Below are positions 6,230 to 37,335 of a DNA stretch of 64,000 bases, one piece after another. Both the position numbers and the translations under genes were made by a program. Source of the DNA: Gonapodya prolifera JEL478 (Eukaryota; Monoblepharomycota; Monoblepharidomycetes; Monoblepharidales; Gonapodyaceae). The notes below the pieces were generated by a model. That model made no database searches. It worked only from the letters and a program-made list of their open reading frames with translations, and was not told the origin of the DNA. Positions within the stretch are counted from its first letter, which is position 1. The number at the start of each line of letters is the position of its first letter. The stretch spans positions 133,641 to 197,640 of the forward strand of contig KQ965768.1 in NCBI GenBank assembly GCA_001574975.1, written 5' to 3'.

Positions 6230-7810
6230 ATGCTTACGACGCCGCCCATTCAAGGCTTCGACACCGCCGTGCATGCACCGGAGCCCACTCTGCGAACATA
6301 CCTCCTTTCTGCGACCGAGCTGGGCCTGTCCGATGTCGCAAAGCCAGTGTCGTGTCCCCGGGCGGGGTGCGGGCACGCTGTGATGCTCAAGTTTGTCGAT
6401 CTCGGGTGGGCCAGCGAGCGCAACCTGTCGGCGTTTGAAGAGGAGGGAGGTGCGGAGAAGGAGGAGCACGATCACGAACAGGACCAGGACGAGGCGGAGG
6501 TGGACTACGAGCCCGACATCCGGCTCGTGATCCAGACCTGCAACGCCAACAAGAACGGGCGCAAATGCAACGGTCGTTTCCTGACACCGTCCTGGTGGGA
6601 GGGCGGCACGATCGACTACTCGACGCTGCACCAGAAGCTGCGCAAGAACGGCGTCATCGATATCGGCGCGACAAAGGGCGGGCGCAGGCAGCAGCAACAG
6701 ACGCAGCAACAGGAGAAGGAGAAGCTGGTCCTGGACCAGGCTGAAGTGCGGCGGACGCGTAGTCACTCTAAAAAACAGCGGCGAGAACAACCCGACACGG
6801 ACCGACACGACACCCCTGCTCCCGCTGAGGCGCCACAGCCGCCGCCTAGCCCCACCATCTCCGCGACGACGTCTGCCTCCGGCTGGTCCGGCGCTACGCT
6901 CTCGCCCGAAAGTTGCACCGTGTCGCCCGTCGGGTCGCGGGCTGTGTCTCCTGCTCCTACCGTCTGGGCAAACTCACCTCCGCCAACCGTGTGGGCCACT
7001 TCACCGTCTCCGACCGTGTTTGAAGACCCCATCACAAACACGTATAGTGCGGACTTTGGAATGCACGCATCGATCTCCCACACCGCTCTCTCCCCACCCA
7101 TGAACCCTGTCCCTTCGACACACCAACAACAACAACAACAGCAACACGACTCCCTCCCCTCATACCACCAACCGTTTTACTGGACCGACATGTCCACACA
7201 ACTGCACGTGCCCGCCACGCATGCACAAGCGCAAGCGCAGACGCAGGTGTACGGATACAGCAGTGAGCAGCCTGCACATGCACAGACGCAGGCGCAGGTG
7301 TACCGCTGTGCGCTGGACGCGTCCTATCCTTCCAATTTTGTCTTACAACCCACGACCACGAGCACATTCCCTCTGGTAGTCCTGGGCAATACCAGCGGTG
7401 TGCCAATCCACGAGACAACATCGTACTACGCCCCCCACACGCACATACCCGCTGCGTCGTTGCTGGCACTGGCACCTCGGCTTATGCCCTCCACCGCCCC
7501 TCCCACCACCTCCGCCTCCGCCTCCGCACCTCACTCAGACACGCGATACGACCCTTTGAACCCCTTCACGTACGGCGCGCTGGACAAGTCGGCGACGCTC
7601 TCCATCTCTGTCGCGTCGCCCCCTCCCTCGAGTGTGAGCGTGCCGGACGCGTCAATGCTGTGGGGGGGAGATGGGGGGTTTGGGTTCGGAATGGGAATGG
7701 GAATGGGAATGGGAATGGGAATGGGAATGGACGATGTGTTGTGGCAGCAGAGGGACCATTGGGCGGGAGGCGGAGGCGAGGTGATGGTGATGGATGGTGA
7801 TTCGTATTGA
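6230..7810 (+). CDS. family A-D protein, member A: unrecognised Cys-containing core domain with low-complexity tail
   Basis: Single exon, 526 aa. Residues about 20-140 form the domain shared with the genes at 11148, 13133 and 32997. It has TLRTYLLSATELGLSD, then CPRAGCGH and VMLKFVDLGW, then DYEPDIRLVIQTCN followed seven residues later by KC, then WWEGGTIDYSTL and LRKNG. The conserved cysteines and histidine suggest metal binding, but I do not recognise the domain. The tail is rich in Gln, Pro and Ser, with a CAA/CAG-coded Q run, AQ-rich repeats and a Gly-Met run. YDPLNPFTYGAL near the C-terminus recurs in member C. The N-terminal Cys-Gly-Gly motifs of C and D are absent. The tail looks like that of a regulatory nuclear protein, which is inference only. 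Confidence 0.75.
   Translation: MLTTPPIQGFDTAVHAPEPTLRTYLLSATELGLSDVAKPVSCPRAGCGHAVMLKFVDLGWASERNLSAFEEEGGAEKEEHDHEQDQDEAEVDYEPDIRLVIQTCNANKNGRKCNGRFLTPSWWEGGTIDYSTLHQKLRKNGVIDIGATKGGRRQQQQTQQQEKEKLVLDQAEVRRTRSHSKKQRREQPDTDRHDTPAPAEAPQPPPSPTISATTSASGWSGATLSPESCTVSPVGSRAVSPAPTVWANSPPPTVWATSPSPTVFEDPITNTYSADFGMHASISHTALSPPMNPVPSTHQQQQQQQHDSLPSYHQPFYWTDMSTQLHVPATHAQAQAQTQVYGYSSEQPAHAQTQAQVYRCALDASYPSNFVLQPTTTSTFPLVVLGNTSGVPIHETTSYYAPHTHIPAASLLALAPRLMPSTAPPTTSASASAPHSDTRYDPLNPFTYGALDKSATLSISVASPPPSSVSVPDASMLWGGDGGFGFGMGMGMGMGMGMGMDDVLWQQRDHWAGGGGEVMVMDGDSY
7688..7730 (+). repeat. (GGAATG)n microsatellite coding for Gly-Met
   Basis: About seven copies of GGAATG inside gene A, read as alternating Gly and Met. 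A related GGGGAT array coding the same dipeptide occurs in member D at about 34706-34763. Confidence 0.9.
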
Positions 7811-10128
7811 GCCATTTTCATTTTTCAATGTGAATAGAATGAAAATCGTATAAATGAAAATTTTATTTTTGTGTTCTTCCAATAATTGGTGGTGGTCCAA
7901 CTCAACAATGGGAGGTCTCCAAGGCGGGTTTCAAAGTTCGATAACGATTGCAAGCTTGCCAAGTGAAGTGAGCTAGTGGCAAGCTTCCTAATGGATCTCT
8001 ATTGCTATCTCGGTTGAAAGCTATTCTCCAAAGACATTTCGAACTGCGAGTGGTATCCGCACTCCACACTCCCTGAGCTCCTCTGCCACTCTGCCACTAG
8101 ATCTCACTTTTTTTGTTTGCGCCCAAGGCCTTTCACGAGTGCTCCTGCAGTGCCCAAGTCTCCGATCCCATATGAGCCCAGCCAACGTACTTTCACAAAA
8201 TGAAGCATGGCTTGTCAGAGGATGGACGACCTTCCCAAATACGTTCTTTGTATAACCGTGCGCATATCACCAAGGAGACGAGGCTGCGACCAGAGTTTTC
8301 TGGTTTGCTTCGAGAAAGGCATGACGAATGTAGCCCCGGTTCGATCTGGGATGAAGAGTTGAGGACTGCGTTCGGACAGAGCGTCGCACAGCGCATCAAG
8401 TCCCCCTCCCACGTCAAAGCAAGGACGGAGGACTGAGTTACGTGTCGTTCTGATAATGAAAGGGTGAATTTGATTCGGCATGCCCTCACTCCATGCTCTC
8501 ACGGGACTTTGCTGATTCGCCGATTGCCGACCCCGCCAGCCGAAACATGGTCACGCGGACAAGCATCCCATCTCATTAAGTCATTTGGAACCGAACGACC
8601 AGTACAGTACGTTTTGTGCTATGCTCGTGCTCGTGCGCTGGTAAGTATATTGCCCCAGCCCCACACGACACGGATGACGGACTGCCAAGCTTCGCCGACC
8701 GAGGTCGGAGATTTAACGCTCTTTATATCTTGATGCATGTTCATGGCGATCGGAAACTTGGTTTGACAAGGTGTGTTTGGTTGGTCGTTGTATCATGACG
8801 ACTTCGTGCACGTCCAAAGATGAACGTTTTCACTCCTCTTTTCTCTCAATCCTGGGGCCACCTCATGTGCCCTGTGTCCGAGTCCCTCTCCGCACACACA
8901 CACACAAAAAGCGGGCGCACACGTTCTTTTGCAGTAATCTATCACGTTGGCGAAGGGTAATGTTGCACAACACAATTGCTCTAGGATCCCTTTGCTGTGT
9001 TGGTTGAAGACTTTCGTGAAATATTAGTCTGCGTCTGGGACATATCTTGCGTAAAGCATAGCATTTTTCGACGCCTCTATCTTCCTATATGCTCCTCAAC
9101 ATCACATCAATTTATTTCACCGCCAACAAGACACGATGAAACATGAATCAAATGAAGGGAGCGGCATTTGCGTTGAATAAATGTCAGGCTCGTAGCATCG
9201 GTTCAAAAAGCTGTTTGGCACATGCCACTCTTGCCGGTGTGTGATGGGTGGGAACTGGGAAGACTGACGTCCGGTCTTGCTGGAGCTTGGAGCCTGGAGC
9301 CTGGCGCCTGGACCTCGGTCCGACGTGCTCCATGTGGGCGATTTGGGTTCAAGGACCGCTTTTGGCGACCATATACCACGTGAAGCTGTCGGTAGCAAGC
9401 AGCTCTTTATTGGAAAGCAAATTTCGATCGTCGTTATAGAGCTATGACTGTCTGAAATACGTCCACGGACGACGATGCCTCTTGTGCTGGAGTTGTGACG
9501 ATGGATGGCATCATCTGGTGATTTCTCTCTTGCATGTGCAGACTCGGGTGCACACCACCGGACCCGCACTCGGCACTTGGCAGTCGGAACAGAACTGACC
9601 GACCACGGTGGCGGACATCGCATGGGAACAGATGCGTGCAATCGGCGAATCTTAGGTTTCCAGAACGGGAACTCGTGTGGACCCCTACCAACCCCGCGTG
9701 CCTCCTGGGACCCACCCACTTGCCAAATTCGGTGAGACGCGGTGCATCGCAGAGAGCATCGTCGGGCGAATCTAAGCCTTGTGATGTGCGTGTGGCGTGC
9801 GCGTGTGGTGTGCGTGTGGGATGTCCGAAAATGGATGGAGATTGGCACCCTCCGATCCCGGCAGAGGCTCGCTGAGGACAATAATTCCACATTGAGCAAG
9901 TCGAGTGAAATAGAGAAAAGAGCGTTGGCGTGCGCCGGACTTGCGAGCGCGTGTCTCTCACCCGCAGTCCGCTCAAACGCGCAAGCATCGCCAACCTTCC
10001 AAATGCGCATTCGACGCAAAACAGCCCTGCACCGCCTCTGTCTTCTATTATGCTGCTACTTGCTGTATCAGCAACCTGTGTATATTTCTCGTATGTTTTA
10101 GCTTCGGCCCTCAAGCGAGGAAAGTGCG

Positions 10129-10183
10129 ATATCCGCGGTTATCCCGAAGTGCGAGGTCCCGGCCATGGGATAACCGCGGATAT
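10129..10183. repeat. perfect 17-bp inverted repeat, 21-bp spacer
   Basis: ATATCCGCGGTTATCCC at 10129-10145 is matched by its exact reverse complement at 10167-10183. The arms contain CCGCGG. The structure lies about 1 kb upstream of gene B. It could be a binding site for a dimeric or paired regulator, or a hairpin; no terminal repeats or transposase are nearby. Confidence 0.9.
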
Positions 10184-10751
10184 ATACGGTACCTGCACAG
10201 CATCACTCCACCATTTTCGGAGCATTGGGCTTAAGAAGACTCCACCGCACTCAACGCGGTCCCTTCCACTGCCACGCGCTCAGGCGCAACCGCATCGTCG
10301 CATCCCGGACTCTCTTACCCCGCACTGCTGCCAAGCGCGCGCCGTCTTCACCCGCCAAACCGATCGATTGGTCACGGTTGGCCACTACATCCAAGCAAGC
10401 ACCGGTACAGTCCGGATACAGAAGCAGCGGGCACGACCGAGTCGTCGTCCTGCTCCCGCTCCTTTCCCTACCTCAAACCCTAGCACCACACGCGCATTTC
10501 ACCGCGCTACGCTGCGATCCCTCGTCCGCGGTTCCACATTGATCGTTTTCCATCTCATCTGGAAGGTACGTGCTCGCGCTCTTGCTTCCCGACTCGGCCA
10601 TTCGCAGCCATGTCCGGGATGTCTGTTTCCCGTGTGAGACTCCCCCGACTGACGATCCCGTTCCGTTCCAAAAACCCACAGCTTCTCGTTTGTCCTCCTG
10701 TGACAAGTCCTTCCTTCCACGACCCACTTACGCATCGCATCAGACACGGGA

Positions 10752-11092
10752 AAAAAGGTGCCGTACCCATCATCAGCCGCTCAAGCCGTTCCCAATCGCT
10801 TATAATTTCATCACGCCCCCCGCGACCAGTAGTCCATACGCACAAGAAAAGACCTTGTGCATCAACCACTGACAAAAAGGTACCGTCCGGATTGCCGACG
10901 ATACTCAATCCGTTTCAATTTGCTCACATTGTACATGTCCCACCCCCGCGGCAAGCAGACCCAAACGACAATCAGCTTCCGACAAGGAGCAACTTACGGA
11001 TCAAAACAACTGAAAAGGTACCGTCCCATCATGGTCTGCTGCATGCCATTTCCATTTGTTTACATGTTACCTGTCCCCCGCGGCCAGTAGCA
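10752..11092. repeat. three imperfect tandem units upstream of gene B
   Basis: Three units start near 10752, 10874 and 11014. Each opens with AAAAGGT(A/G)CCGT and later carries a CCCCCGCG block followed by (C/A)AG(T/C)AG. Spacing is about 120-140 bases. The middles are diverged, so the duplication is old. They end about 55 bases before the gene B start codon. Confidence 0.65.
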
Positions 11093-11147
11093 CCCACCCC
11101 ACCATCCCACCTTTTCCACCCTCCAAACACCACCCAAACCACCCAAA

Positions 11148-12666
11148 ATGGCCTCCCTCAAAACCATCCTCCTCACCGACGCCCAAATCGGGCTCTCCGG
11201 AATCGCCGACAAAGTGACCTGCCCAAGACCGGGGTGCGGGCACAAGATCCGCCTCAAGTTCGTCGATATGGGGTGGGAGAAGCAGTCTCCTCCACCACAG
11301 GGGCAGCACCAACAGGGGCAGCAGCCAATGCAGTACGAGAAGGATATAAGATTGGTCATCCAGACCTGCAACCGCACGCAAAACTCCAAAAAATGCAACG
11401 CGCGGTTCGAGAGGCCGAGTTGGTGGGACGGCGCCGTGATAGACTACTCGACGCTGCACCAAAAGTATGTTGTTTTTTCTTTTGCGGGGAAAAGGCCTCG
11501 GTGCTTGCTTGCGATGAGCTTGAGGTCTAAAAATACCACTTCCTCTTCCCACACCCATCCACCACACTCCCACTCACACTCACACTCCCCTCTAATCCAG
11601 ACTCCGCCGCCGCGGCCTCATCGAACCCTCCCGCTCGCGCATGCGCGGGGGCGGGGGTGCGTCATCCCGGAAAGACTCGCCGGACAGCCACAGCTCCGAC
11701 GGGGACGAATGCAACTCCCAAGCCACCTCTGGCGGCACGGGGACCGTGGCGGACTTCCCCGTGGCGACCGTTTCGGAACCGTTTATCAACTTTGGGTTCG
11801 GGCCGTTCGCCGTTCCGCTTCAAGTCCCGCCTTCGCCGTCGCTGTCGCCGCAGTTTGGCCAAGGGCACGGCACGAGCAACAGCCCTGTGCCCATGTACCC
11901 GACCAACGGCTTCACACCGCGGTTCTTCCTGAACGACCAAGGGCAGGCCCAGGGGCAGAACCAGGCGCAGGGCCACGGCAGGTTCAAAAGCGTATCGCCA
12001 TACCCGCCCCAATTCCCGCCCTTCCCGCCACACCTGCGCACGTCCACGTCGGACCCGGACATCAGCACTAGCCCCGTACCCCCGCGCACGCACGCGCCCT
12101 TGACCCGGCTCCGCACACGGTCCTACTCAGGAGAACTCGCGAGCCTCCTGGCACTACGGCACGACACCAACACAGCGGACGTGGACGTGCACCATCTCGG
12201 GCCCGACTCGCACGGCCCACGGCGCGTGCACAGGGCGATCACGGACGGCGTGCTGTGGGGGCCGCCGCTTCGGGGGACCAGCATGAGCATGAGCATGAGG
12301 ATCATAGGCGGCCCGATCGGTGGGTCGCCGATGGGAGGGTACGACGGGGCTGTGTGGCCGCAGAGTGTCGGTGTCGGACCCGGGGTTTACCAAGGGTACC
12401 ATCTGGACCCCACGATGCTTCGATTGCGGGAGGGGCCCTTCCAGCATTACCAGTCAATCGCGGCGGGCAGCGAGCACGAGCATGAACATGAGCAAGGAGC
12501 GGACCAGATCGCGAGGGCAGAGTCGCAGTCGCCGTTCTTGGGGTACGCTGGCGGTGGGGAGGGTGATGCCAAGACTGAGTTTTTGATGTCGGATTTGCAG
12601 TGGAGTGGTGTGGTGGGCGTGGACGTGGATGTGGACGGGGGTGGCGATGAGTTGGCGGGGTGGTAG
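11148..12666 (+). CDS. family A-D protein, member B
   Basis: Two exons, 11148-11464 and 11601-12666, joining to 460 aa. The protein begins almost at the shared core: MASLKTILLTDAQIGLSG, then CPRPGCGH and IRLKFVDMGW, then DIRLVIQTCN with KC after the spacer, then WWDGAVIDYSTLHQK. The intron (GTATGT to CCAG) interrupts that last segment, which continues LRRRGLIEPS after splicing. The other members have no intron there. The tail contains HSSDGDE, SEPFINFGFGPF, a TRSYSGELASL block, a Met-Ser run and a Glu-His run, and ends with an acidic Val-Asp stretch. Spacing between the two Cys motifs matches the other members. Function unknown. Confidence 0.75.
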
Positions 12667-13132
12667 ATGGTGGGAAGTAAGGGAGAGATGGCAGGGAAGC
12701 CGGACTGTGGGGAGAGAAGGCAGGAACTGAAAATGGACTGGACGGACGGACGGGCTGCGTGAACGAAAACTATTCCTATTGTTGTAAAAAGCTTTGTGCA
12801 TAGATTTGACTACGTTTTTGTATGTTTGTCATGGCGTAGAATATTATATCAACTTCAAGAAGACTGTCAATCGAGTGTGCAACAATCGTTGGTTTGTGTT
12901 TCGCAAAATTACACGGCAATTTCTTGCCTCCGTACAGTGCGCACTAACGAACAAAATTATTTGTTTGAACTTCACCAAGACCGAGTTTCGGAGTTTGGCG
13001 ATGATGAACTTGTGCCTCCTCCGCTTTACGAACTCCAGGCGGCGCACTCACCACAGCACCGATTATCCCCACGCAACCAATCCACTTTCCGGCGCCTCAC
13101 TCCGCGTGCACGTCACTTAACCCCACCTGCCC
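12667..13132. other. intergenic region between members B and C
   Basis: About 470 bases, AT-richer in its middle. Small overlapping frames only. It should hold the 3' end of B and the promoter of C; no clear motif seen. Confidence 0.5.
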
Positions 13133-16100
13133 ATGGCCGCAGCTGCATCGGCTCTGCTGGCTCGGGCCTCGTCGGCTGGAACCCACGCAACAGCGGACAG
13201 CTGGGTCAATAGCTATGTGGCGGACTATGACATGGACGGCGGCGAGTCCCCGGCACTGCACCCAAGCGAGGACAACGTCGCCGGAGTGGTGGTCAAGCAG
13301 GAGCAGGAGCAGGAGCCGTACTTGGGTGACTCGAAAATTACGGTATCGGCAAAGAGCGAAGGGAGCTCGGCGGGGACTCGTGGCGGCTCGCGTGAGTGCT
13401 CCGACGCGAGGAAACATATCGCTGGTGCTTGACGTGTGAGGTACTTGCTCGGAGATTGGGGAGTAGCGTCGCTGTGGAGTCAAACGTAATGTTTGACAGG
13501 ATATTGTGGGGACACTCCACATGATGGGGATTCCAATTCCAATTTATGCACCGCTTTCAACTCTACTCGGACGTCGAATGGTCCTCACTGACGCTTCTCG
13601 CCCGTTTCCAAACGCAGCCCCAGTTCGCGATACCCAACGGAAACCCTTCCCTGCTTCGTTTCAAGAGGACTGTGAGGCTGGTGGACGGATTGGCATTGAA
13701 ATTCGTAAGAAGAACGAGCCAAAGTACAGGGAGGATTGTAGGATTGGTGGCATCAAAGGTGGGTTGGGTGAAAGGCGATGTCAAAAGACAAAGGTTGGGT
13801 GGACAATGTTCCGTCAAAGTCCGAGCTGCCGATACACGGAAACGAATGAAGGCTCTCGAAAGGAAGGCGGGAAGACCTCAGTTGTGGTGCATTGCATGGA
13901 GCTTCGAAGGACCTGGTGTGAAGTCTGTATTAAGAGTGATACTTCTGCTGAGGGGAGCTCCGCCAAGACTTCTTCGGGGCTGTCGAGCACCCCAAACTTC
14001 TCTCTCACCTACTCTCCCCCGTTCGTCCTTCTCAAAGTACAGGTGCCAACTCCAAACGAAACCTCCGCCACACGTCGCTTAAAACCTTTCTCCTCTCTGC
14101 TGCCGAACTTGGTCTTTCCGATATTGCCCGCCCGGTGTCGTGCCCCAAACCAGGATGCAACCACTCGGTCATGCTCAAGTTCGTGGACCTTGGGTGGGCG
14201 AGCGAGCGCAACTTGATGGCTCACGAAGAGGATGGGGACGGTGAGGAGGTCGACTATGAGCCGGACATTCGACTCGTCATTCAGACGTGCAATGTGACGT
14301 CGGGAGGTAAAAAGTGCGGAGGTCGCTTCGCAAAGCCCGACTGGTGGGATGGTGGCACGATAGATTACTCCACTCTCGATGTGCGGCTCAAGAGGAATGG
14401 ACTGGTTGAGAAGGCTACCAAGAGGGAGATCAACGAGGACCCTCCTGCGAGGGCTACAGGCTCGGGGACTCGTGGAGCGACCAGTAGCCCCCCTCTGTTT
14501 CCCTCGCCGACCACTGCCACTTTCCCTTCGTCCGCGCCTGCCACGTTCTCTCTCCCCGTCTTCGACGATCCCCTCAATGAATTCTTTGATTTCTCTGGAG
14601 TCAGGGACGAGCTCGAGGCGTTCCACCTGGCGAACGCGGAGTTCGCACATGCGGCATCTCCAGCAACAGAGAGGGACGATCCCATGGATGTTTCGAGCCC
14701 ACCAAGACCTTCTTCTTCGGGAAACGTTGGGAGAGCATCTTCATCAGAACCGCCTACACCACCCGCGCCCCCGCCGTACCTGCCCTTTTTCTCTCTTCCG
14801 CCTCTTCCGCCAACTGCTGGGCCTTCCGCACCGCCATCATCCGGTTCTGCCGCTGGCCCCTCGGGCCGTGCCCGCCGGGTCAACTCCCTCCCAATCGCGG
14901 TCCCCCCTCCCCCAACAATCACGCGGTCTCTCTCAACATCAGCCCGGCGGCGTGTCTCCTCCCCTTCTCGTCCTGGAGCGCCGTATCCTATCCTTCCCCC
15001 ATCCCCGTCCTTGTCTCCCTCAACGGCCTCCCCTCTTTCTGCCGCAACAGACACAACCGGTCGGAGTGTGTTTGACTTCACCTTGCCACCACAACCCAAC
15101 ATGGTGTTCGAGATGGTCATGAGGGAGTTGACCAAAGGTGTTCCACCTTTGCGGCATGCAGCTCCTGGCGATGGACAAGGAGGTGATGCGACTGGGCTTC
15201 CGCCAATGTTCGCTCCGATGGGAGGGCTTCAGGGACACTTTGACAGCCACATGGGAGATCCTGGACAAGCAAGTTCCGAAAACGCGGCGTTTTCGGATCC
15301 AAATCATGTGTTTGAGATGGTCATGCGGGAACTGGCAAAGGGCATCCCCCAACTCCGTCATGCGGACCCGTCGATCGCAGCAACAACGAGCGCGACGCCT
15401 CAATTGGACCCCTTCGATCTCGTCCTGGCCGAGCTTGTTCGGCACCCACCCCCACTCCGGCCAGCACCGCACCCACCCGCTCCGGCGGATTTCACCATGG
15501 TGCTCACCGAATTGGTACGCAAGCCCCCACCGCTACGTAGAACGGGACAGCCGAGGGTAACGCCTGCTCACCGTGGTCCGGCGCAGTACGAGACGGTCAT
15601 GAGGGAGATGATAACCCGTCCTCCGGTGCTGAGGACACCTGGGAGGATGCGTGGAGGTGGCGGTGGCAGCGGGAGCTTGGGTGCAGGTGGAGTGTCGTAC
15701 GCACCGGCGGTGCCTAGTCCGTTGGGAGGCCAGGGAGCGAGCGGGGCAGGGCAACATAGGAGAACATCGAGTGGCGCCGTGAGGGGTGTGGGAGTCGCTG
15801 CTGCGGGAGGCCACGGAAGGACTACGTCGACCGCGAGCGGTGGTTATGATCCGATGGACCCTTTCACGCATTTGAATTTAGGGGCCCCCGGTCTGAGTGG
15901 AGTAAGCGGGACCGGGGTGCATGGAGAGGGAATGCTAAATGGGACAACGGGGAATGACGGTGGGGATGTGTATTTGTTGCCTCCATCCGAAGCTGGAGCC
16001 GTGCATGATGGAGCTGGTAGTGCGGGGCATGGAGCCGTGGGTGGGTCTCGGGACGAGGACACGTGGATGGAAATGGTTGAGAAAGTGGCGATGATGGGGG

Positions 16101-16138
16101 GCGCGGAAGAGAGGGCTGGGTGGAACGTTGGAGTGTGA
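13133..16138 (+). CDS. family A-D protein, member C, with Cys-Gly-Gly motifs and fivefold PPLR-type repeat
   Basis: Proposed exons 13133-13391, about 13618-13758 and 14043-16138, giving about 831 aa. The first exon is the least certain. Exon 2 encodes EDCEAGGRIGIEIRKKNE and then EDCRIGGIKG, a duplicated Cys-Gly-Gly motif also present in member D. The next intron falls at the same codon and phase as in D. The core follows: KRNLRHTSLKTFLL, CPKPGCNH, VMLKFVDLGW, DIRLVIQTCN with KKC, WWDGGTIDYSTL, LKRNGLVE. Residues about 485-666 hold five copies of a motif of the form F/Y-xx-V-M/L-x-E-L-xxxx-P-x-L-R. YDPMDPFTHLNL near the end recurs in A. A possible polyadenylation signal AATAAA is at 16203-16208. 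Confidence 0.72.
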
Positions 16139-16502
16139 TGGTGGTGCATTTTTGATGGTTGGGAGCTTCAATGTATTGGAAAGGATCAATTCACTATTTG
16201 CAAATAAAGGTTAATAGATGCATAGTTGTGGAACCAGTTTAACAGAGACAGTGCTGTTTCAAAACAAATCAGTTGCGTCGGCAAATGAGTACATACATCC
16301 ACTGATATGAGCAGACCTCGCGTTATCCGTACTCGCGTTATCCGTACGCGAGGTGTGGATCTTTATACATACACGGCATGATGGTTTTCTCAGGTTGCAG
16401 GCTGCCTATTTCCCTGATCGTGGGGACATTTCATTCCCAAGAGCGCAACGATCACAACAGCCTCCGTCACTCTGCAGCTGCATCGTCATCTGCATAGCAT
16501 CC
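16139..16502. other. intergenic region with iterated palindromic element
   Basis: Holds the AATAAA at 16203-16208, 65 bases past the member C stop, and the repeat element at 16315-16354 described separately. The remainder is presumably the promoter of the first 7TM gene. Confidence 0.5.
16315..16354. repeat. 40-bp element: direct repeat inside an inverted repeat
   Basis: ACCTCGCG at the left is the reverse complement of CGCGAGGT at the right. Between and overlapping them, the 15-mer CTCGCGTTATCCGTA occurs twice head to tail. The element lies about 150 bases upstream of the first 7TM gene, a position suited to an upstream activating site. Confidence 0.85.
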
Positions 16503-18432
16503 ATGGGCGCTTCGAATGACACCGCTGCCTACGAATCCTTCCCATATGCGCTCAGTCAATCCGACGTCACTCTCGGACTCATCGAGCTCATCGTGTGCTC
16601 CCAGGTGAGCAGGATTTAGCCATGCCCCAACCATCCCGATTGTAAAATGGGAGCAAGGGGTAGCAATGATTGCTGAGCTGCGTTTCTGGATCGGCGATAT
16701 GTTCATTCCATAATCCCATAGGGTGCGTTTGTGAACTTCGTGGTGTGCTACAACTTCATTCAGCTGTTCAGGGTGAGCTTCTGCACGTCGCTCTGACCCA
16801 TGAAATCGACTGATCAAAGCCGTGTTGACCAGCGACGGGGTACCAAACATCTTGACGAGATGATCCAGATGACATGCTTTGTGGTAAGAGATCTTCACCA
16901 TCTTTTCAACCACAGTAGTCACCGGATTGCTTTACCCGTCCAGGCCAACTTCCTTGCCATGTCCGGTCGCGTGATCCTCAAAGGTGCTATTATATTCCAT
17001 GACAACCCAACCATAACGCACAGCATGTGCCAAGCCCTGTCTATGTCTGGTATGTCACCCGGCACCCATTCAAAGATGAGATCTCGTCGCGCTATGCTTG
17101 AAATCTCATATGTATGCACGTGACCCCCTCTCGCTCGTAGCGTGCGTGCCCTGGGGAGGGACGATCATCGCCCACGCTCATTTGGCGATGGAAAGACTGG
17201 CAAAAAAGAGGAGTATTATTGATCCAAGAGTGAGTTTCCCCACAGCTACGGGAGGGAAAGAACACTTTGGTATTCGCCTTCTCAAATCTTCGCACTGAAT
17301 ACATATATGATCCTTCACTCTCTCCACAACACTCAACTCGAAACCACCAGGGCAGCCTTGACGCAGATCGCGGATATTTTGGCATGAGTCGTAAGACAGC
17401 CTTCAGAACCGTCATCCTCGGCTATATATTTTCAATTCTGTGCGGGATCATATACATGGTGGTGTCGCCTGACGGATGTGAGTCGATTCAAGGACAGTGA
17501 GATTGGCGACATTAGACAATACTCATCGTGCAGACGTATTGTCATCTGGACATTTGTCGTGTAATTTTTACTTGTAAGTGCGCACAACCTTTGTATCACA
17601 GGGATAAAGAGTTCGGGGCGTCAGAAACTCTTCAGCCGGAAGCTCAAGATATTATTTTCATCAACCAACGTACATCTCACCCTCATCGCCCACAGCGCCG
17701 GTTCCCACTGGTCCCACGTCCTCTTCGGTTTCATCACGCTCTTTTGCATTGGGGTCTCCCTGGCTACCATTCTCGGATGCACTCTCCAAGAAAACTACGC
17801 CGCCGAGGCCTACTCACGCGCCATGGTGTCGATTGCAGGGGACTTTAAAAAGCTGACGGAGATGAAAAAGAATGAAAGCAGGCATGAGTCAGTGGAACAG
17901 AAGATTCTGATGGCGTTTGTGGGGTGGGTAACAGAACTGTTTTGGGGGGACCACTACGATTTTGTCATCTTTTGGAGAGCTGATAAATCACGGATTTGTT
18001 TTTGCTGACCTTCCCTGTGTGATGTCACACTCTTCCTCATGTCCCATACATCGTCCACCACTCATCCTACCAGCGAGTGGATCCTGGAAACCATTGTGAT
18101 CGCACAGGAGATGATTACTCGTCAGCATGCCGACCCCGGTCTCTCTGTTGCTGCATTCCTGTGCATCAAAGTGTTAGTACTCTCTCATCTCCCGTGTCCA
18201 GGTCTCGTCCTCATTTTGGGACCAAAAAAATTCCCAAAGGTCAACCACAATCCAAGCACTCTTGGTGTTATACTCAAAGCACGAGTTCTACGCCAGTAAC
18301 GATGATAATCTCTCGGGCAGTCACTTGGAGGTATCACCGACAACAGTGACGGTGGGTGGCAAATCGTTGGAAGCCTCGCCAACAATGGCGACTGTGGGAG
18401 GGAGGTCAATGGCTTCGAGTAAATATAACTAG
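16503..18432 (+). CDS. putative seven-helix membrane protein, tandem copy 1, 10 exons
   Basis: Exons: 16503-16604, 16722-16772, 16833-16883, 16944-17049, 17141-17229, 17351-17477, 17534-17573, 17696-17923, 18074-18172 and about 18240-18432; 361 aa. Starts MGASNDTAAYESFPYAL. About seven hydrophobic segments can be seen: around LGLIELIVCSQGAFVNF, MIQMTCFVANFLAMSG, ACVPWGGTIIAHAHLAM followed by ERLAKKR, VILGYIFSILCGIIYMVV, VLFGFITLFCIGVSLATIL, MAFVGEWILETIVIA and FLCIKVSTTIQALLVLY. The layout resembles a G-protein-coupled receptor, with a charged ER after the third helix, but I cannot place it in a named family. The C-terminal tail is Ser/Thr-rich. Exon sizes and phases match the second copy downstream. 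Confidence 0.75.
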
Positions 18433-19123
18433 GACAGGCCACATGCTCATTCGATCCTCATGACAACAGCACAATCGTCGTGTATTTCAGGACTGTTATG
18501 TAAATAATGTAGTAGATACTGATATTGCGAGCAAAGGTGTGTCGTGGGTGGAAAATACAGAGCCTTTTGTACGTTGATCCATGGGATTGATTAGTGGAGC
18601 GTATGTATTTTGGGGGAAGGTCAATTTATCCCCTTCCATTCTCGGAACCAATCCATGTGGACGATGTTTGTACGTGGATGTGGAATACTGAATGAAAATT
18701 TTGCGGAATTTTCTGGTTGTTTCCGTAAATTTTCTTCGATCTTCTTTTCGTTTTCTTTGTGGGAAACCTCCCCTTATAAACAACAGATTCCGGCACACAT
18801 CCCATTGAAAAACCTTTCATGACCTTTTCCCCCCAAAAATCCTTGGCATTCCAGATAGCATGCTACTATTTCGCGAAAACTTTTCAACCACGATTGATGT
18901 CAAAGGGATCCAACAATATGCTGGATATCTAAATTACCTTGAAACCGGCCAATTTATCATCCAGCGTGTGAAGTAAATGTTTATTTCTGAAAATTCCCGC
19001 AGCCGATTCACTCTCCTTATATTCAAAGTGGTCAGATTTGTCTTATGGCTACCTTTCTCCATGATCGGTCAGGGGTGTTCCGATCCCACGAGCCTGCATC
19101 TAACAGCTGTTGTCAGCACGGAT
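18433..19123. other. intergenic region between the 7TM copies
   Basis: About 690 bases without a convincing frame. The first copy's 40-bp repeat element is not present here, so the two promoters appear to differ. Confidence 0.5.
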
Positions 19124-20899
19124 ATGGGCGCTTCGAACGATACGGCGGTCAACGAATCCTTCCCTTATGCGCTCAGTCAATCCGACATCACTCTAGGCCT
19201 CATCGACCTGGTCGCGTGCTCCCAGGTAAGCAGGATGGAATCATGTCGAAATCGTCCTGATCGCGAAGGGAGCAAGTGGGAGTAGTGATTGCTGAAATCT
19301 GCTTCTGCCTTGACATTACGTTCATGAGAGCCATTCCATCATCCCAGGGTGCTTTTCTTAACTTCGTGGTGTGCTACTACTTCATTCAGCTGTTCAGGGT
19401 GAGCTTCTTCTCGTCAATCGGAACCATGAAACTGACCGATCAAAGTCGTGTTGACCAGCGACAGGGTACCAAACATCTTGATGAGATGATCCAGTTGACG
19501 TGTTTTGTTGTAAGAGATCTTCGCAAGCCACTCAGGCACTGTAGTCATCAGATTACTTCAACGACGTTTATTCCTCCAGGCCAACTTTCTCGCCATGTCC
19601 TGCCGCGTGATCCTCAGAGGCACTATTATATTCCGTGACAACCCAACCATAACGCACAGCATGTGCCAAGCTCTTTCCATTTCTGGCAAGTCACTCATGC
19701 AAAAGTGAGATCTCTCCACGCTACCTGGACATCTCACCCTACACTCTCACGTTCAGCGTGCGTGCCCTGGGGAGGGACGATCATTGCCTATGCTCATTTG
19801 GCGCTAGAAAAACTAGCTAAAAAGAGGAGAATTATCGATCCGAAGGTAAGTTTCCCCACAGCTATGGGACAGAAAGAGTACTTTGGCATACCTCTCTCAA
19901 TTCTTTGCTCTTACAATATGATTCTACGCATGTGATGCACCCGTCGCCCTCTCTACGACACCCCATGAACCACACCAGCAGGGCGGTCCAGATGCTGATC
20001 GCGGTTACTTCGGTATGAGCCATAGGACAGCCTTCAGAGCCGTCCTCCTCGGCTATGTATTTTCCTTTTTATGTGGGATAATATACATGTTGGTTTCGCC
20101 CGAAGGATGTGAGTAGGTTCACGAACTGCAAAATTGGCCACATTGAACAGTACTCATCGCGCAGACGTATTGTCGTCTGGGAATATGTCGTGTAACTTCT
20201 TCTTGTAAGTGCACACAACCTTTGCGTCACGGGGATGAAGAGTTTTGGGCGTTCTGATCTTCATCAATCAACATACATCTCACCCTTATCGCCCCACAGC
20301 GCTGGCTCTCACTGGTCTGACGTCCTCTTCGGTTTCCTCACACTCTTTTGCACTGTGGTCTCTCTGGGCACAGTCCTCGGATGCACTGTTCAGGAGAATT
20401 ACGCCGCCGAGGCCTACGCACGCGCCATGGTGTCAATTGCGGGGGACTTTAAGAAACTGACGCAGATGAAACAGAACGAAAGCAGGCATGAGTCGGTGGA
20501 ACAGAAGATTCTGATAGCGTTTGTGGGGTGGGTACCAGGTATCGGGGGATGGGGAGGAATTTGTCATCTGGGGAGTGCTGATCTCAAATCACAACACTGG
20601 TCCCACCAGTGAGTGGATTCTGGAAACCATCGTGATCGCACAGGAAATGATTACCCGTCAGCCCGCCGACCCTGGTCTCTCAATTGTCGCCTTCCTGTGC
20701 ATCAAAGTGTCAGTCACACTCAATCTCGGGTATTTTTCGTCCTCATTCTTTTCCTTTCCCACCAAACCCCAGGTCCCCCACAATCCAAGCTCTCCTGGTG
20801 CTATACTCAAAGCAAGGGTTCTCCACCAGCAACGACGAAAATATCTCGGGAAGTCTCTTGGAAGTGTCACCGACAACAGTGTCGGTGGGTGGCAAATAG
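19124..20899 (+). CDS. putative seven-helix membrane protein, tandem copy 2, 10 exons
   Basis: Exons: 19124-19225, 19348-19398, 19459-19509, 19580-19685, 19757-19845, 19982-20108, 20165-20204, 20300-20527, 20610-20708 and 20773-20899; 339 aa. The first nine exons have exactly the same lengths as in copy 1 and the protein is closely similar throughout (MGASNDTAVNESFPYAL, GTKHLDEMIQLTCFV, ACVPWGGTIIAYAHLAL). The last exon is shorter because the frame stops earlier in the Ser/Thr-rich tail. The intron after exon 4 starts GCAAGT instead of the GTATGT used in copy 1, so it would be a GC-AG intron. Function unknown; a receptor-like role is inferred only from topology. Confidence 0.75.
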
Positions 20900-21754
20900 T
20901 TCGAAGCCTCAAAGCCTCACCGACAATGGCGACGGTGGGAGGGATGTCATTGGCTTTAAAAAAACCATAACAAGGCCACGTCGCGTGCTCATCAGATCCT
21001 CATGACTATTGTAGAATCACTGTGTATTTCAGGGCTGTTATTATTCCCCTGCGTATTTAAGCAATGTACTATCTGTCCGCTTGTTGGAAAGGTCACTCTT
21101 CATCCCCCCCCCCCCCCCCCCCTTCCAGTGGACGATGTAGGTACGTGGACGGGGTGTTGTGTATGGTGACCTTGGGGAATTTGTGATTATTGTTTGCCCA
21201 ACTTTCTCTCTGACCTCGACCTCGGCTTTTTCTTTTTTGTGAGAACCGCAGCATGTATGGAATTCCGAACAAGCACGGCTCATTGAAAATACGCGACCGG
21301 AAGGCTTAAAGTACGTTTGCGTGTGTGTAAGTGTGGGGTTTGGTGGGGGTTAAGACTTTGCGGAAGTCGGGTTTGAAGGGAGGACGAAAGGCGGACTGAA
21401 CCTGCCTGGCTGGGCTGTGGTGCGGTGGGTGGGGCCAACAGAAACCGCACAAGAACAGAGAGAGCGCGAGTAGAATTGAGGGAATCGGACTCCGCGGAGC
21501 GGATTGAGGAAAACGGAAAACTTGGGCGGAGGGTTGCGGAGGGGGAAGGTGGGTTGGTGTGGGGTTGGGTGGGATGGGTTTGGGTACGACGGAGGGGAGG
21601 AACTCCGGAAGGAGGAGGGAGGATGAACGGACGGAAGGAAAGAGTGCAGGGGAGAGAGCTAGGGGGATTTGATGGGGGGGAGAGCGGGAGATGTGATTCG
21701 GTTGAGAAGTAGAATGACACCGAGAAACGAGGGCAAGTTGCGGAACGCGGAGAC
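20900..21754. other. intergenic region with 19-base C tract
   Basis: A run of 19 C lies at 21104-21122. A minus-strand frame of 224 codons across 21280-21954 is compositionally biased (Pro, Ser, Thr) and overlaps the start of the RRM gene; I treat it as a shadow. Presumed promoter of the downstream gene. Confidence 0.5.
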
Positions 21755-29881: not shown

Positions 29882-29972
29882 CTCCCAATTAAACGGCTGA
29901 AACTGCGAAGTACAGTTTCTCTTCTCCCCTTTGCACCAGCGCCGTTTTGAAATAATCTCTCGTGAAGGTTCT

Positions 29973-30555
29973 TTACGCTGAAGAAATTATCACATCATGA
30001 TTGGTGTATTGAATGCAGGATTTGAGTCCGAATCCATCCTCCAGCTCCGATCCATAGCGCCCTTGCAGCCTGTACATTTGCATCTCTTGTGCGAACTCAC
30101 CGTGACAGACCTCCACCCAGCGTTTCCGTCCCTCTTCGCTCAGACCCCGCAGCAACTCTCTCAGAGACATTTCTGCGCACCAGCGCTCCACTCCGGTACC
30201 CTCCCGATAGCGTCAGGGTGTAGTTCCTTGCGAGCCGTTTCACGAGGGGGGCAGCCGCCCGAAAGACATCCGATGTCTCGGGCAATCGTTCCAATCGCTT
30301 CTCGGCCTCTCGGGCCTTTTCACCCCCCCACTCCCGCTCCTCGCCCTCGGCAGCAGACGCCGCATCATCGTTGTGTTCGGATTCTGGTTCCTCAAGCTCC
30401 CGCTCGCAGGCCTCGATAGCGCGGCGCAGTTCTGGTGTTCGGTGTTCAGGCCGGACAGAGAGTGCACCCGAGTGGAATAAGCGCAGGAGAGGGAGACTGG
30501 GTGACATCCCGTTGTGCGGGGGGAAAGTGTATCGATGGCCAATGCGTTGCTGCAC
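29973..30555 (-). CDS. hypothetical protein, weak model
   Basis: A minus-strand frame covers 30097-30555. The first ATG in it, at about 30507, gives roughly 135 codons, beginning MSPSLPLLRLFHSGAL and containing an acidic stretch and EAEKRLERLPE. A GTGAGT near its end and a TACAG about 60 bases on would splice to a short second exon ending at 29973. An alternative frame there reads SLRELLRGLSEEGRKRW, which looks protein-like. I recognise no family, and the correct frame is undecided. Between this and 30808 nothing else is evident. Confidence 0.3.
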
Positions 30556-30808
30556 CTTTGTGTTTTTCTCGGGCGCCTTGGTTTGCCTGACGGATGATCC
30601 TTCACACTTGGCGAAAGGTTCACCCGAGCTGCCACATCTCCCTTCCTCCTCTCTCCAGATTTTCCAGGACCAGTTTTAACGGTGTGCTGGATATACTATC
30701 TGAGAGGCCCAGCGGATTGCCACCTCGGTCACAGTCCATTCCTCATCAACAAAAATGGAAGGTCATCTTCAAGCTCCCACAACAGTTACATAACGAGTTG
30801 CCAAAACC

Positions 30809-32183
30809 ACTAAAAGTTCTCCTCCAAGAACTGCGCCGTCCGATGGAAGCAATCCAGCGCATTCCGCTTCACAGTCTCGTCCGTAAAGTCACCCCTTACA
30901 AGAGAAGCAGTGAGGGGTGCGGTCACAAGCGCACAGCAAAGGTTCAATCATACCTCGCGGTGCAGAATCCATGCGGTACCTCTTCGTAGCGATGGTGCAG
31001 CACCGTCTTGCACTTTGGGTTGTCTTGCATTGCCTTGATGACTTCTGTAAAGTCCGGATCCTGTACAAACAAGGAAACGATCAAACGGGAGTCGGGACCA
31101 CGTCATAGACATGCGGTACTGGCGGGTAGGGGCGAGTTTCAACTCACGTTGTTTCCCGGTAGGAGCGCGACTGGGATCTTGACGTTCTCTCCGTCCCGGA
31201 TTGTGATGAATGCGGGATGGATCCCAACGACGACTTTGACGTCGCCGATGAGATCATCGTCTTGTGCCGCCTTGATGATGATCTCGCCTTGGTGGGACGG
31301 GACCAACGTGGTACCGGTCAAACACAAAGGCACGCCACCGTCCACTCTGGTTGACCACCCACCTCCATAACAGAACCCAACAATCCCAACTTTTTCCACT
31401 CCGTGCGTCTTCTTCAAGAACGCGATGGTGTTGACGAGATCGTTCTTGACAACTTTCTGGTACGACCCTGCGCCCTTTTGGGTGAACTCGACGATCCTGT
31501 CCCAGACGCGGCGGGTGAGTCCAAGCGAGGCGATTTCGGCGTCGGGGGTTCCGGGTTCGGGTGGGTCTAGTGAAGCACTTCGTCAGACACCTTCCGACCT
31601 GTAAAAGGCTGTTTGAAAAGAAAACAGATTGACCACGCACCAGCCATGAATTCTGCGACTGGCACACGGCGCCTGAACACGTCAGGCTGGACTGTGAGCA
31701 GGCCGGTGTGGTTGGCGAGGTAGTCGCACGCTTGTTTGTTGTTTGGGTGTCCCGTTCCCTAACGTATTTTGTGAAACGCAACCGTTTCAGTTCACCACCA
31801 GCACCCGCCTGTGTTGTAAGAACCTACCACAATATCATAGATGACAATCAAGGCTTCCTTGGTCGACTTTGGGCCGCCTTCGGGCTCGACGACGTAAATC
31901 GGGAGTTCGCCCAACGTATCATCTTTGCCGCGCGGTTTGAACTGCGGCATCGTCTGCTCAATGCACCGGCGCACACGTGCCACAAAAATGCGCGGGAGTT
32001 GGCACTGTACTCACAAAGTTTGGCGGGACGAGAACGGGCTTTGCGTAAGCGGCCCCACAGCAGGACCTAACAACATTTGATTGAGCGATCGAAATCGCTG
32101 CGGTTTCGGCACGTCGAGCCCCGCGATTCACGCATCACTTACTCGGCGACAAGAAGCTTGTCTTTGGGGTCTTCGATGGTCAT
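30809..32183 (-). CDS. dienelactone hydrolase family protein, 7 exons
   Basis: Exons on the minus strand: 32143-32183, 32015-32066, 31828-31953, 31641-31758, 31148-31566, 30954-31060 and 30809-30894; about 315 aa. Signatures: LIVIYDIV followed after splicing by GTGHPNNKQACDYLA, the nucleophile elbow GFCYGGG with Cys near residue 179, GIHPAF, the acid region VALLPGNND, and the histidine in VPHGFC near residue 285. The triad Cys-Asp-His of dienelactone hydrolases is therefore present. Fungal members are cytosolic esterases, often of unknown substrate. The N-terminus MTIEDPKDKLLVA is a short first exon supported by splice phase. It is divergent to member D, with 0.8 kb between them. Confidence 0.85.
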
Positions 32184-32996
32184 GGTGGGGGAGAATTGGC
32201 TTGAGTGTCGGTTTGGTTGTTGCCGATCGCAACTAATTAATTGAAGGGTCATCTACCATCATGTGTAAAATTTGAACATGCCTAAGTACGAACAAAATGC
32301 CTTCATCTCTCTCCGCGCAAAATGAAACTAGACGGTTCAATGAAGGAGCTCATTTCCGCTGTCTCCTCTCCCAACACGACTGAATCTGCCAAAACAAACA
32401 AACTACCCCATCGTGCCTTTTCATTATGGAGTGAAGGGGGTGATTAGGATGGTTCTCCGGCATTTCTGTTTGTACATAACAGTATTTCAAGATATTTCCA
32501 ACGGATTTCAGCAGGAGAGGTAACCACCCAAAACACACTCGAGAACGCTGTTTTCTCCAGTTAGAAAGCGTCCGTCTTTTCAGAACGTCTCTAAGAAGCT
32601 AAATAACGTGACAGTAGTCAAGTGACAACTTCTGAGAGGTACCTCTCCTGAAGTTTCATCATCACGGTCTTCTTCTTTTCCCATGTCATAAACGTACCCT
32701 CTTTGTCAACAGAGGATACCTACGTCTATATCTAGTGAGTTAACGAACTAGAAATCTAATAAGTAAACTCGAAGATGATGTTATATTCTTCAATGAGTTC
32801 GACCCAGCTTCTTCGGTCTGACCGCAGGAGAGAGAAAGACAGCATCGAGAGACACAGGAAGAGCAGAGGATCGACAGGAGGAGAGAGCGCACATCGGACG
32901 CAGCGGAGAATCGGAGTGGGAGAGCGCGGGCAGAGCGGGACAGCAGACGCAGCGGGCGAGCGAGGACACACACACACACACAACAGATTGGCAGCC
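32184..32996. other. bidirectional intergenic region
   Basis: Between the divergent DLH gene and member D. A perfect 14-bp palindrome GAGAGGTACCTCTC is at 32634-32647. The frame of member D is open upstream to 32775, but that stretch is GA-rich and ends in a CA run just before ATG 32997, so I take it as 5' leader. Confidence 0.5.
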
Positions 32997-33932
32997 ATGG
33001 AATCGGTCACCTTTGCAAACCCGCACATCCACTTTGCTCATCTCCCGCTCACACGCGCGGATTCTGCGCCCGACGACGACTTCGACGCAGACGACAACGC
33101 GCTGACTGTCCGCGCCTCGCTGTTCCGACCCCGCCCCCGCTCGCCGCCTCCGCCAATCCCGCCCTCGTTCTTTGCCGCGCACACGGACGCGTCGGACATC
33201 GATCCGGGATACCTCGACGACTCAGAGTCGGGCGACGACGATACGGATCCGTTCGGGAACGAAGTCCAGCTCGACCCATCAGACCCCGTCCCCCCACCGC
33301 TCGTCCCGCGCACAAAGCCCGCGCTTGCAAAGAGAAAATATACGCGTACTCGCCAGCAGCACGCGCGCAGATCCCCGCCCGCCTCGCTCTCATCCTCGTC
33401 CTCGTCCTCGTCCCTTTCTGCACTCGAATACACCCCTCTCCAAGCAGAATCCTCCTCCGCCTCCTTTTCCTCACCCGCCGCTCCGCTCTCCGCACCCACG
33501 CAAAAGCCGCGACCCAAGAAATGGGCCTCGGACTGCGTCACGGGCGGGATTCATGGCATTGAGAAGCGCAGGGAGGACGAGAAGAGGTACAGGACAGAGT
33601 GCTCAAAGGGCGGGATTAATGGTGGGTGCAGCCGAGACGGAGCGACCGAAACAACAAGCAGAAGTCGTGCCACGGAGGACGCAGGCAAAAGTCGCAAGGA
33701 CGGGGCCAGATGCGAAGTCGCGAGGAAGAGTGGGAAGTATGAAATGCCGTGTGCCGGAGGCAAATGATTCTACGCGGAGCGTAATCTGTGTGAAGCATGA
33801 AAGGCTGTGCCCGGAGGCGAACCAACCTTCGCGCAGAGCGACGGTGACGAATTAACGTGTTACGCGGAGCACATTGCGAGGTCTGGAGTGCAGAGCTGGG
33901 ATAGCCGTCAAGTCTGCTGCGTGTTCAACTCT

Positions 33933-33963
<31 letters not shown>

Positions 33964-36900
33964 ACTCACCTACCCCCCGTCCCACTTTCCACAGCAATCT
34001 CCGCCAAACGCAACCTGCGCCACGTCTCGCTCAAAACCTACCTCCTGACCGCGCCCGAAGTCGGCCTCTCCCACCTGGCTCGGCCCGTGCCCTGCCCTCG
34101 CCCCGGGTGCGGACACTCTGTGATGCTCAAGTTTGCCGACCTCGGGTGGGCCGACGAGAACCCCGAGGCGGGCGCGGGCGGGGGAGGGGGAGAGGGAGAG
34201 GGAGACTCGGACGCCTCGTACGAGCCTGACTTGCGACTGGTCATCCAGACGTGCAATGCCGTGCGGGATAAGAAAAAGTGCGGCGGGAGGTTCGCCGTGC
34301 CCGACTGGTGGGCCGGCAGGCCGACCATTGACTACTCGGCGCTCGATTCGCGACTTAAGCGAAACGGTCTCGTCGAGGTGTCCCGCCGCAACGAGGAGGG
34401 CGACGCAGCAGCCGCCGCCGCCGCCGTGCCGAGGAAACGCCGCAGGGGGGGGGCTGGTGGAAGTGGAGGTGGGGGCGCCAAAGCTGCCACGGGGGCCGAT
34501 GGGTCCGCACCTGCCACTGCCGGTAACCTCCCGCCGCCGCCTCCGCTGGAAGAGCCGGGTTCGTCCGGATACGAGAGCGGGCAGAGCAGTTGGACGACCA
34601 TGACGGGGACTACGGCCGGGTGGGACGGGGACGGGGATGGCGACGCAAGGGGCGCGGGGGGAAGGAGAGGTGGCGGGGCGGGCATGAGCGATGACGATGA
34701 CGAGGATGGGGATGGGATGGGAATGGGGATGGGGATGGGGATGGGGATGGGGATGGGGATGGAGAACGCGGTGAACCTGATGGATCTAACTGGCGAGCGC
34801 GGTGGAGGTCAGTGGGGGTGGGACGCGTGGGCGGACGGAGGAACGGTGTGGGGCGTGGGAGCGTTGCCGAGCGGGATGGGCCAGCAAAAGCAACAGCAAC
34901 AGCAACAGCAGCAGCAGCAGCACAATATCTTGACCTGGAGTGTGCCGGTCACGCAGCATCCCGCGACGATGGGAAGACCCGCGACCGCCCCGGTGGGCCC
35001 GCAAGTGATGGCCCAGTCGCAGGTGCAGGTGCAGGTGCAGGTGCAGCAGCAGGCGCAGGTGCAGTCGCAGTCGCAAGTCCAAATGCAGGCGCAAGTGCAA
35101 TCACAGCAACCACTGGCGCAGGTGGCTGCGCAGATCTCGCGGTCCATATCTGCACTTGGAAGCGGCGGGACCGGTATGGGCATGACGCCGGCCGCTCCAG
35201 CGTTCCCCGTGCGTCCCGCCAGCCAGCCACACGCACAACCGGCGCCCCCACCCGTGACGCTCGCATGCAGCGCACCCCCGGCGGCGGGTGTTAATATGAA
35301 AGTGGAGGCTGTGGGCGTGCGACAGTACCAGATGATGGTGCAGCAGGCCATGTTGCAGCGTATGCGGGAGCAGGAACAGGAGCAGGAGCACAAGCAGGAG
35401 CAGGAAAGGTGGGGTGCGAGTGGAGGTGTAGGGAGCGTGGGCCATCCCGTTTCGACCTCGAATCCGACTCACCTGCAAGCACACATGCTTGGGACGGGTC
35501 CCGCACCCCTCTATTTGACTGGCCCCGCTCCCCCGCACGGAGCCGGTCCCTCACCGGGGGGTTTGTCTGCCCACACTCCTCTTTTGCACCCTGACGCGCC
35601 TGAGATGCTCCGCCGGGCGCGGTCCGTCCCTGTACTGGAGGGTGACGACGGCGCGGGGCGGGCGGGGTGGCATGAAGCTGTCTCGGGTGGACAGGCGGGG
35701 ATGCACGGCGCTGTCGCGGCCCAGGGGGGGCATGTGGGACTTCATGAGGCACGGCAGGGCGCGACGGGATTGCGGCGGTCGGTGTCCAATGTAACTAGTG
35801 GCGGAGGAAGACGAAAGAGCGTAACGTCACCTCCCGGAGTGCACGTGGATGCGGCGGGTGGAAGTGCGGGGGCGGGGAATCACGGGCACCCACACCCACA
35901 CCCGCACCCACACGCTCACCCACACGGACACGCCGCCCACGTCCACCATCCTTACTTCCACCCGACGTTCCACCCGTCCCCCCTGTCACACTCGCTGGAC
36001 CACCAACCACGGCCGGGAGATGCCCAACACTTGCAGGCAGTGGGGGTGGTAGGCGGAGCGGGAACGGGCACGGGCCCCGTCCGGTCGCGGCACTCAAGAA
36101 CCCCATCAAGAGCGCATTTGACTTTAGCGATGCCCGGTAACGCTGTCGGTGGTCCCGGATCGCCCAGTCCGCGCACCGCGAGCCCCGCGTCGGCTGGGTC
36201 GGGTAGCGTGGGGCAGGGCGGTTTGTGGGCGGGGCCTGTGGGTGGAGGGTTTGTGGGAGTGCCCGTGACGGTTGGAGTGAGCCACGCGATGCAGCACGTT
36301 CCCGTCACCCAGCAACAGCACCCGCACACGCTCCAGCACCCGCATCAGCATGTCCACCAGCCGCACATGTCGCCGCAAGCTCATCATCCGCAGCTGCACA
36401 TGCCTGTCCCGATATCCATTCCCCTGGCGCTGTCGTTTGCGAGCTCCTCTACGTCGTCAGTGGGGTCCGAGAGGGACACTGCGTCAGTTTCGGCGTCCTC
36501 GTCGGCACCGGCGAGTCCCGCGTCGAGCGTGTCCAGCTCGGTCTTTTCGCAGTTTCAGAACGTACTCAGGATCGCGGATTGGGGCCCGCCGGCACCGCAG
36601 GGCGGGCACAACTTCTCGACGCAGTTTGGAAACCCGTCTGTGTCGCCGTCGCCGTCGCCTGGAGCGTTGCATCTTGCGCAGGGTGGGCGAATCCCCAACG
36701 GACCCTCCGTCAATGCAATGTCGCAAACTTCCTCCACTCGGATGGCCTTTCTAGAGCTTTGGTCTGTCGTGGACAGGGACCAACTCGACGCCGTGAACCA
36801 GTCTGGTGGTGGTGGCGGCGGCGGTGGGGGCTCCGGGGTGTTTGATGAAGCTGCCGCGGCGGACCTGGCTGAGCTGCTGCGCTTCGATGGAGACTTTGGT

Positions 36901-37335
36901 GACGACGATGGAATCGAGACAGGCCGGGCCTTTGGGATTGATCTGGGCTTTGGAGCAGGACTGGATGGGATGGGGCGCACCAGTATGATCGAAGGTATCG
37001 ACCCAGAACTGGCAGAGGCGGCTGCGGCGGCCATGGCTGGTGTGGACGGAGTGGACTATGGGGATGCTGAAGGAGGCTCCGGGAACTTTTTCGGTGCGTT
37101 TGCTGATCAAACGAACACTGGCCAAGGCGAGCATGTCGTAAAGAACAAGTACTCCGAACAAGGCACTTTGGTTGGGGTGGTGGGCAGCGGTGGAGTTCCT
37201 GTCAGTGGCAATGAAGGACAGCTCGAACAGGGTTCAGACGATGAAGAGGTTGTGATGCAAGACTCGGACACGTTTGAGTGGGTTGCGATGGAAGGAGTGG
37301 AGGGAGAGGATACGGGACCGGACTTGTACGGATGA
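32997..37335 (+). CDS. family A-D protein, member D, the largest member
   Basis: Exons 32997-33621 and 33995-37335, 1,321 aa. ATG 32997 has good context (GCAGCCATGG). The N-terminus is acidic, followed by a Ser-rich stretch. Near residues 178-205 the duplicated motif reads SDCVTGGIHGIEKRRED then TECSKGGIN. After the intron comes KRNLRHVSLKTYLLTA and the core CPRPGCGH, VMLKFADLGW, DLRLVIQTCN with KKKC, WWAGRPTIDYSAL, LKRNGLVE. The tail of about 1,000 residues has a Gly-Met run, a glutamine run, VQ repeats, His-Pro repeats and Gly/Ser stretches, and ends acidic (DSDTFEWVAMEG). Such tails are common in fungal transcriptional regulators. Function is unknown and DNA binding is only inferred. Confidence 0.78.
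33934..33963 (+). repeat. 30-base C tract in the intron of member D
   Basis: Thirty consecutive C, about 30 bases before the 3' splice site (CCACAG at 33989-33994). It may act as an extreme polypyrimidine tract. Its length may vary or be misassembled. Confidence 0.95.
34706..34763 (+). repeat. (GGGGAT)n microsatellite coding for Gly-Met in member D
   Basis: Array of GGGGAT-like units, some GGGAAT, read as alternating Met and Gly. A CAG/CAA array for glutamine follows at about 34886-34921 and a CAGGTG array (Gln-Val) at about 35017-35046. Confidence 0.85.

Follow-up and report, generated by a model that had tools for sequence, protein, structure and literature searches.

Four genes in a 64,000-nucleotide stretch of Gonapodya prolifera DNA (hereafter the window) pose a two-part question: do they share a domain that belongs to no named family, and what might such a domain do? 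An earlier note on this DNA had proposed that the genes, here g1 to g4 (Table 1), share a core of about 120 residues within proteins of 460 to 1,321 aa, and the gene models agree with it on both points. Three of the genes had been described as tandem and co-oriented; the co-orientation holds and extends to the fourth gene, all being on the plus strand, while other coding stretches separate g3 from g4. All four proteins are models from the DNA alone with predicted introns removed. The g3 model has two predicted introns (13392-13617 and 13759-14042), the first with two alternative in-frame acceptors (intron end 13623 or 13665), and the predicted intron of g2 interrupts the last helix of the core. 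By the exon lengths of the models, the intron preceding the core is at an identical place and in phase 1 in both g3 and g4. A run of 30 C (33934-33963) lies within this predicted intron in g4.

Table 1. Positions of the family genes and their parts in the window
Feature	Positions	Strand	Remarks
g1 gene	6230..7810	+	526 aa; open without any intron
g1 core	6287..6664	+	motif and alignment
g2 gene	11148..12666	+	460 aa; one predicted intron, 11465-11600
g2 core	11154..11628	+	divided by the predicted intron; end worked out by hand from the exons
g3 gene	13133..16138	+	831 aa in the model used; exons 13133-13391, 13618-13758, 14043-16138
g3 N-terminal module	13668..13758	+	C-x2-GG motif twice; phase-1 intron at its end
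g3 core	14075..14413	+	motif and alignment
g3 PxLR-ending repeats	15107-15634	+	residues 489-664; motif count
g4 gene	32997..37335	+	1321 aa; exons 32997-33621, 33995-37335; predicted intron 33622-33994
g4 N-terminal module	33531..33621	+	homologous to the g3 module, with which it shares the position and phase of the intron
g4 core	34027..34380	+	motif and alignment

The four cores are homologous. All six core-to-core pairs match by tblastn far above chance (E 1.6e-32 to 1.7e-53, with g2-g4 the weakest), and identity to the g3 core in a MAFFT alignment is 68% for g1, 67% for g4, and 53% for g2. The blastp score of g3 with g2, one of the three pairs that include the most divergent member, is 133 bits, compared to a maximum of 18.9 bits over 100 shuffles of g2. 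The cores are 113-126 residues long, with 44 of 102 gap-free columns invariant, and in a six-frame scan of the window just four sites, each on the plus strand, combine the motifs CPxxGCxH, IQTCN, W[WY]xG, and LKFxD. A search of the window by tblastn found no fifth copy, residual matches having E values of 0.016 or worse; one extra match (E 4e-4) is the second half of the g2 core itself, behind its intron. The layout of the core is CPx(2)GCxH, a strand, a variable loop, D[IL]RLVIQTCN, and then KC. An invariant set of three cysteines and one histidine had been described, of which the histidine (that of CxH) stands and the cysteine count does not: there are exactly four in every core, and none of them varies among the members. 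These form the ligand-like pairs C31/C36 and C80/C89, which supply the two pairs needed for a zinc ribbon. Outside the core there are 2, 1, 2, and 3 Cys in g1, g2, g3, and g4, respectively.

The core is not recognized by any protein family library searched, as the earlier note had supposed. None of the four cores matches a Pfam-A family at E ≤ 10 or an NCBIfam model up to E 10; matches in PHROGs up to E 10 are at chance level (best E 0.22), and two profiles run against PDB sequences gave no match to the core. A profile hit to a named domain, which would have spoken against a new family, was thus absent from these libraries. In whole-protein Pfam scans up to E 10, for which the input was only the first exon of g2 and the last exon plus a few preceding intron codons of g3 and g4, the two matches of g1 (E 0.14 and 2.5) fall outside the core, at residues 296-360 and 453-483. 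Pattern searches, each run twice, confirmed 0 of 48 and 0 of 40 pattern matches in viral contigs and 0 of 11 and 0 of 24 in prokaryotic genome contigs, and the g3 core had no tblastn match in plasmid and phage collections. Since the collections searched for relatives are viral and prokaryotic, this empty result says little about distribution; the lack of a library match is meaningful with respect to named domains rather than to distribution. In the literature, the core domain is not described in the titles or abstract openings among the matches listed, and five motif strings had no match.

Several known domains nevertheless invite comparison. Like the zinc ribbon, the core has two Cys pairs; by the secondary structure of the model, a beta hairpin would link them and bring them together at one end. 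Zinc ribbons usually have C-x2-C pairs, whereas the core has C-x4-C-x-H and C-x8-C, adds the invariant WWxG...IDYSxL and N-terminal LxTxLL...GLS segments, and lacks a Pfam or PDB sequence match. The WRKY-GCM1-type domains (WRKY, GCM, and FLYWCH) are comparable in size, are zinc domains built on a beta sheet, and in some cases belong to expanded families, but their ligands end in HxH or similar, while both halves of the core carry Cys pairs. In the GRF-type zinc finger, the run C...C-G-x-F...W resembles TCNx(6)KCxxRFxxPxWW of the core, but the first ligand pair and the spacing differ. Pfam contains models for WRKY, GCM, FLYWCH, GRF, and CxC, and the four cores match neither these nor any other of its families at E ≤ 10.

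The proposal of a small metal-binding fold is plausible, given the four Cys in each core with one to three elsewhere and the secondary structure of the better model, but the structural models are of middling quality and no significant fold match was obtained. The input to AlphaFold was limited to alignments of the four sequences from the window. The full-core model (126 aa) has a mean pLDDT of 67.4, a pTM of 0.55, short strands, and two helices. The best trimmed-core model (96 aa; pLDDT 73.6, pTM 0.53) has strands at 13-24, 46-58, and 61-69 and a helix at 81-90; the remaining four trimmed models have pLDDT values of 64.1, 56.9, 53.6, and 50.6. If a two-residue turn joins strands 2 and 3 of the trimmed model into a hairpin, its DSSP string places C55 opposite C64, and if strands 1 and 2 are paired end to end, the same string sets H13 against residue 57 and residue 15 against C55, which leaves C11 and H13 at the same end. 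The Cys pairs would then meet at one end of the sheet, in the layout of a zinc ribbon, insofar as a DSSP string from a middling-confidence model can indicate. Judged by secondary structure, none of the AlphaFold models appears to hold the cysteines far apart, which had been named as grounds for doubting metal binding. In Foldseek searches of the PDB, nothing reached E ≤ 0.001 for either the full-core model (best E 0.23, DNA ligase 1, probability 0.11; best 50 of 102 matches) or the trimmed model (best E 1.0, a poxvirus RNA polymerase chain, probability 0.25; best 50 of 151), and the trimmed model had no match at that level in BFVD (best E 0.15 among the best 50 matches listed). Similarity to a solved zinc ribbon was therefore not found by Foldseek, although a poor model could miss a true match. 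Paired spacings such as C-x4-C and C-x8-C, with few other Cys, are typical of a structural zinc site. In our judgement the core probably binds zinc, and a zinc-ribbon-like layout is slightly favored.

Outside the core, the proteins had been described as disordered and unrelated in length. They are not wholly unrelated there: g3 and g4 share an overlooked N-terminal module (57 residues, 44% identity, E 2.6e-13) that tblastn did not find upstream of g1 or g2. Its C-x2-GG motifs are spaced 22 residues apart, its net charge is +6 in g3 and +8 in g4, and its two Cys account for every non-core Cys of g3 (105 and 127) and for two out of three in g4 (180, 202, and 633). In the C-terminal arm of g3, the 16-residue motif [FY]xxVxxE[LM]x(4)PxLR recurs five times, at residues 489, 557, 591, 617, and 649, and could be a repeated docking motif. 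All of the proteins are rich in G, P, S, and A; by a crude count made without a disorder predictor, the residues G, P, S, Q, A, T, N, D, E, K, and R make up 71-76% of the arms compared to 65-69% of the cores, a modest gap. Gln accounts for 6.4-6.8% of g1, g2, and g4 as whole proteins and for 2.1% of the g3 arms. Basic clusters lie behind the cores, including RKRRR in g4 (355) and KQRR in g1 (182), but several of the clusters are inside the core helix. The last 40 residues rank among windows of sequence in the top 0.2% for g4, 1% for g2, 6% for g1, and 17% for g3 by an acidic-aromatic score that was devised ad hoc and is not a validated activation-domain predictor; the tail is thus strong in g4 and g2 and weak in g1 and g3.

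These features suggest a locally expanded fungal family of nuclear regulators, in which long low-complexity arms carry a zinc-ribbon-like head, a reading to which we give an even chance; for the nuclear regulatory role on its own, our judgement is just as evenly balanced. In the mechanism that we infer, from the zinc and the details of the fold to DNA binding, location in the nucleus, and activation, CPx(2)GC would be one knuckle and C-x8-C the other, and the four Cys would hold one zinc ion, with the histidine of CxH as a possible alternative or second-shell ligand. A beta hairpin with a freely varying loop would connect the two knuckles, and the conserved WWxG-x(1-2)-[TV]IDYSxL would run into a helix that packs against the hairpin. 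The head may contact DNA, or else a chromatin or transcription partner, while the low-complexity arms, which bear basic patches and, in part of the family, end in an acidic-aromatic tail, may recruit the transcription machinery. The net charge of the core is +4 to +8 without the variable loop and -8, +8, -4, and -2 in g1, g2, g3, and g4 with the acidic loop. The negative values in three of four members lend DNA binding no support, but because the sign in these three depends on the loop, charge alone cannot choose between DNA and a protein partner. It is possible, if doubtful, that the family is an undescribed class of fungal transcription regulators, one that has a novel DNA-binding domain dependent on zinc, has expanded within a single lineage, and in two of its four members has a second, basic Cys/Gly-Gly module ahead of the core. 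Conserved uncharacterized domains are common in fungi. If the reading is correct, a family that would probably be annotated as hypothetical acquires a defined domain together with an alignment and ligands open to testing. In a census of fungal transcription factors, the entries are listed by known InterPro domains (PMC5415576). A class of regulators without a profile would therefore be absent from it.

The chief alternative is a zinc module for contacts between proteins: the core as a zinc-ribbon adaptor on low-complexity arms that does not bind DNA and works, for example, with RNA polymerase, the ribosome, or ubiquitin. Zinc ribbons do fill many roles other than DNA binding, the core is net negative with its loop in most members, and the non-significant Foldseek matches of the full-core model include several small-subunit ribosome chains (e.g., 7osm_eS26, E 3.1, probability 0.06). 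Those matches are at chance level, however, the cores are net positive without the loop, and local expansion with highly divergent arms would suit regulators more than constant machinery, making an adaptor rather unlikely. Still less probable is a fold without metal, in which the Cys are structural or redox-active and a sheet-helix unit binds the partner. Consistent with this, 39 of the 44 invariant columns are neither Cys nor His and the AlphaFold models were built without metal, but the C-x4-C and C-x8-C pairing with few Cys elsewhere is what a structural zinc site typically has.

A further alternative is that the copies derive from, or were carried by, a fungal mobile element. The multiple copies of a Cys-bearing core in a fungus recall Pleurotus, where cysteine clusters of the CxC2 and CxC5/CxC6 types are reported next to KDZ and Copia elements, those of CxC5/CxC6 in 44 to nearly 60 copies (PMC7641404). 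Both are Cys-containing domains that have multiplied, those of the report in a mushroom genome (PMC7641404), but the copies in the window are few and old, have no profile match (no core has a Pfam match at E 10), and are not marked by element repeats. The window has no inverted repeats of at least 40 nt (seed 14), a setting that shorter terminal repeats would escape, and direct repeats of at least 40 nt in the family genes cover only the cores (D1, D4, and D12) and low-complexity, mostly Gln-coding stretches (D6). No transposase family matched among the 24 proteins or pieces scanned. Pairwise dN by NG86 is 0.25-0.50 over the six pairs, while dS is 1.07, 1.10, 1.23, and 1.47 in four pairs, giving dN/dS of about 0.2-0.5 with dN well below dS; it is not computable in the other two, which we read as saturated. 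Judging constraint by NG86 counts alone, the copies look old and constrained rather than recently amplified. Local expansion, which had been claimed from the gene arrangement, is thereby supported, though by old copies. Because these repeat searches showed no element repeats around the copies and no such profile matched, an origin in a mobile element is improbable.

The GC content of the window is 48.5-61.7% in 4-kb steps. Neighboring genes above the Pfam cut-off have a ThiF domain, an F-box-like domain, and a PNRC motif; LRR and RRM matches are below the cut-off, and an alpha/beta hydrolase is also present. The window also holds a tandem duplicate of about 1.9 kb (16480-18450 and 19100-20980, about 2.6 kb apart, 77-78% identical by blastn), and a piece of its protein joined by hand matched nothing in Pfam at E 0.01; by eye, the duplicates seemingly encode a multi-exon plus-strand protein with hydrophobic segments. 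The PNRC-motif protein at 3417-5279 on the minus strand (E 1.5e-4, 22.1 bits; Pfam cut-off 21) is perhaps decapping-enhancer-like.
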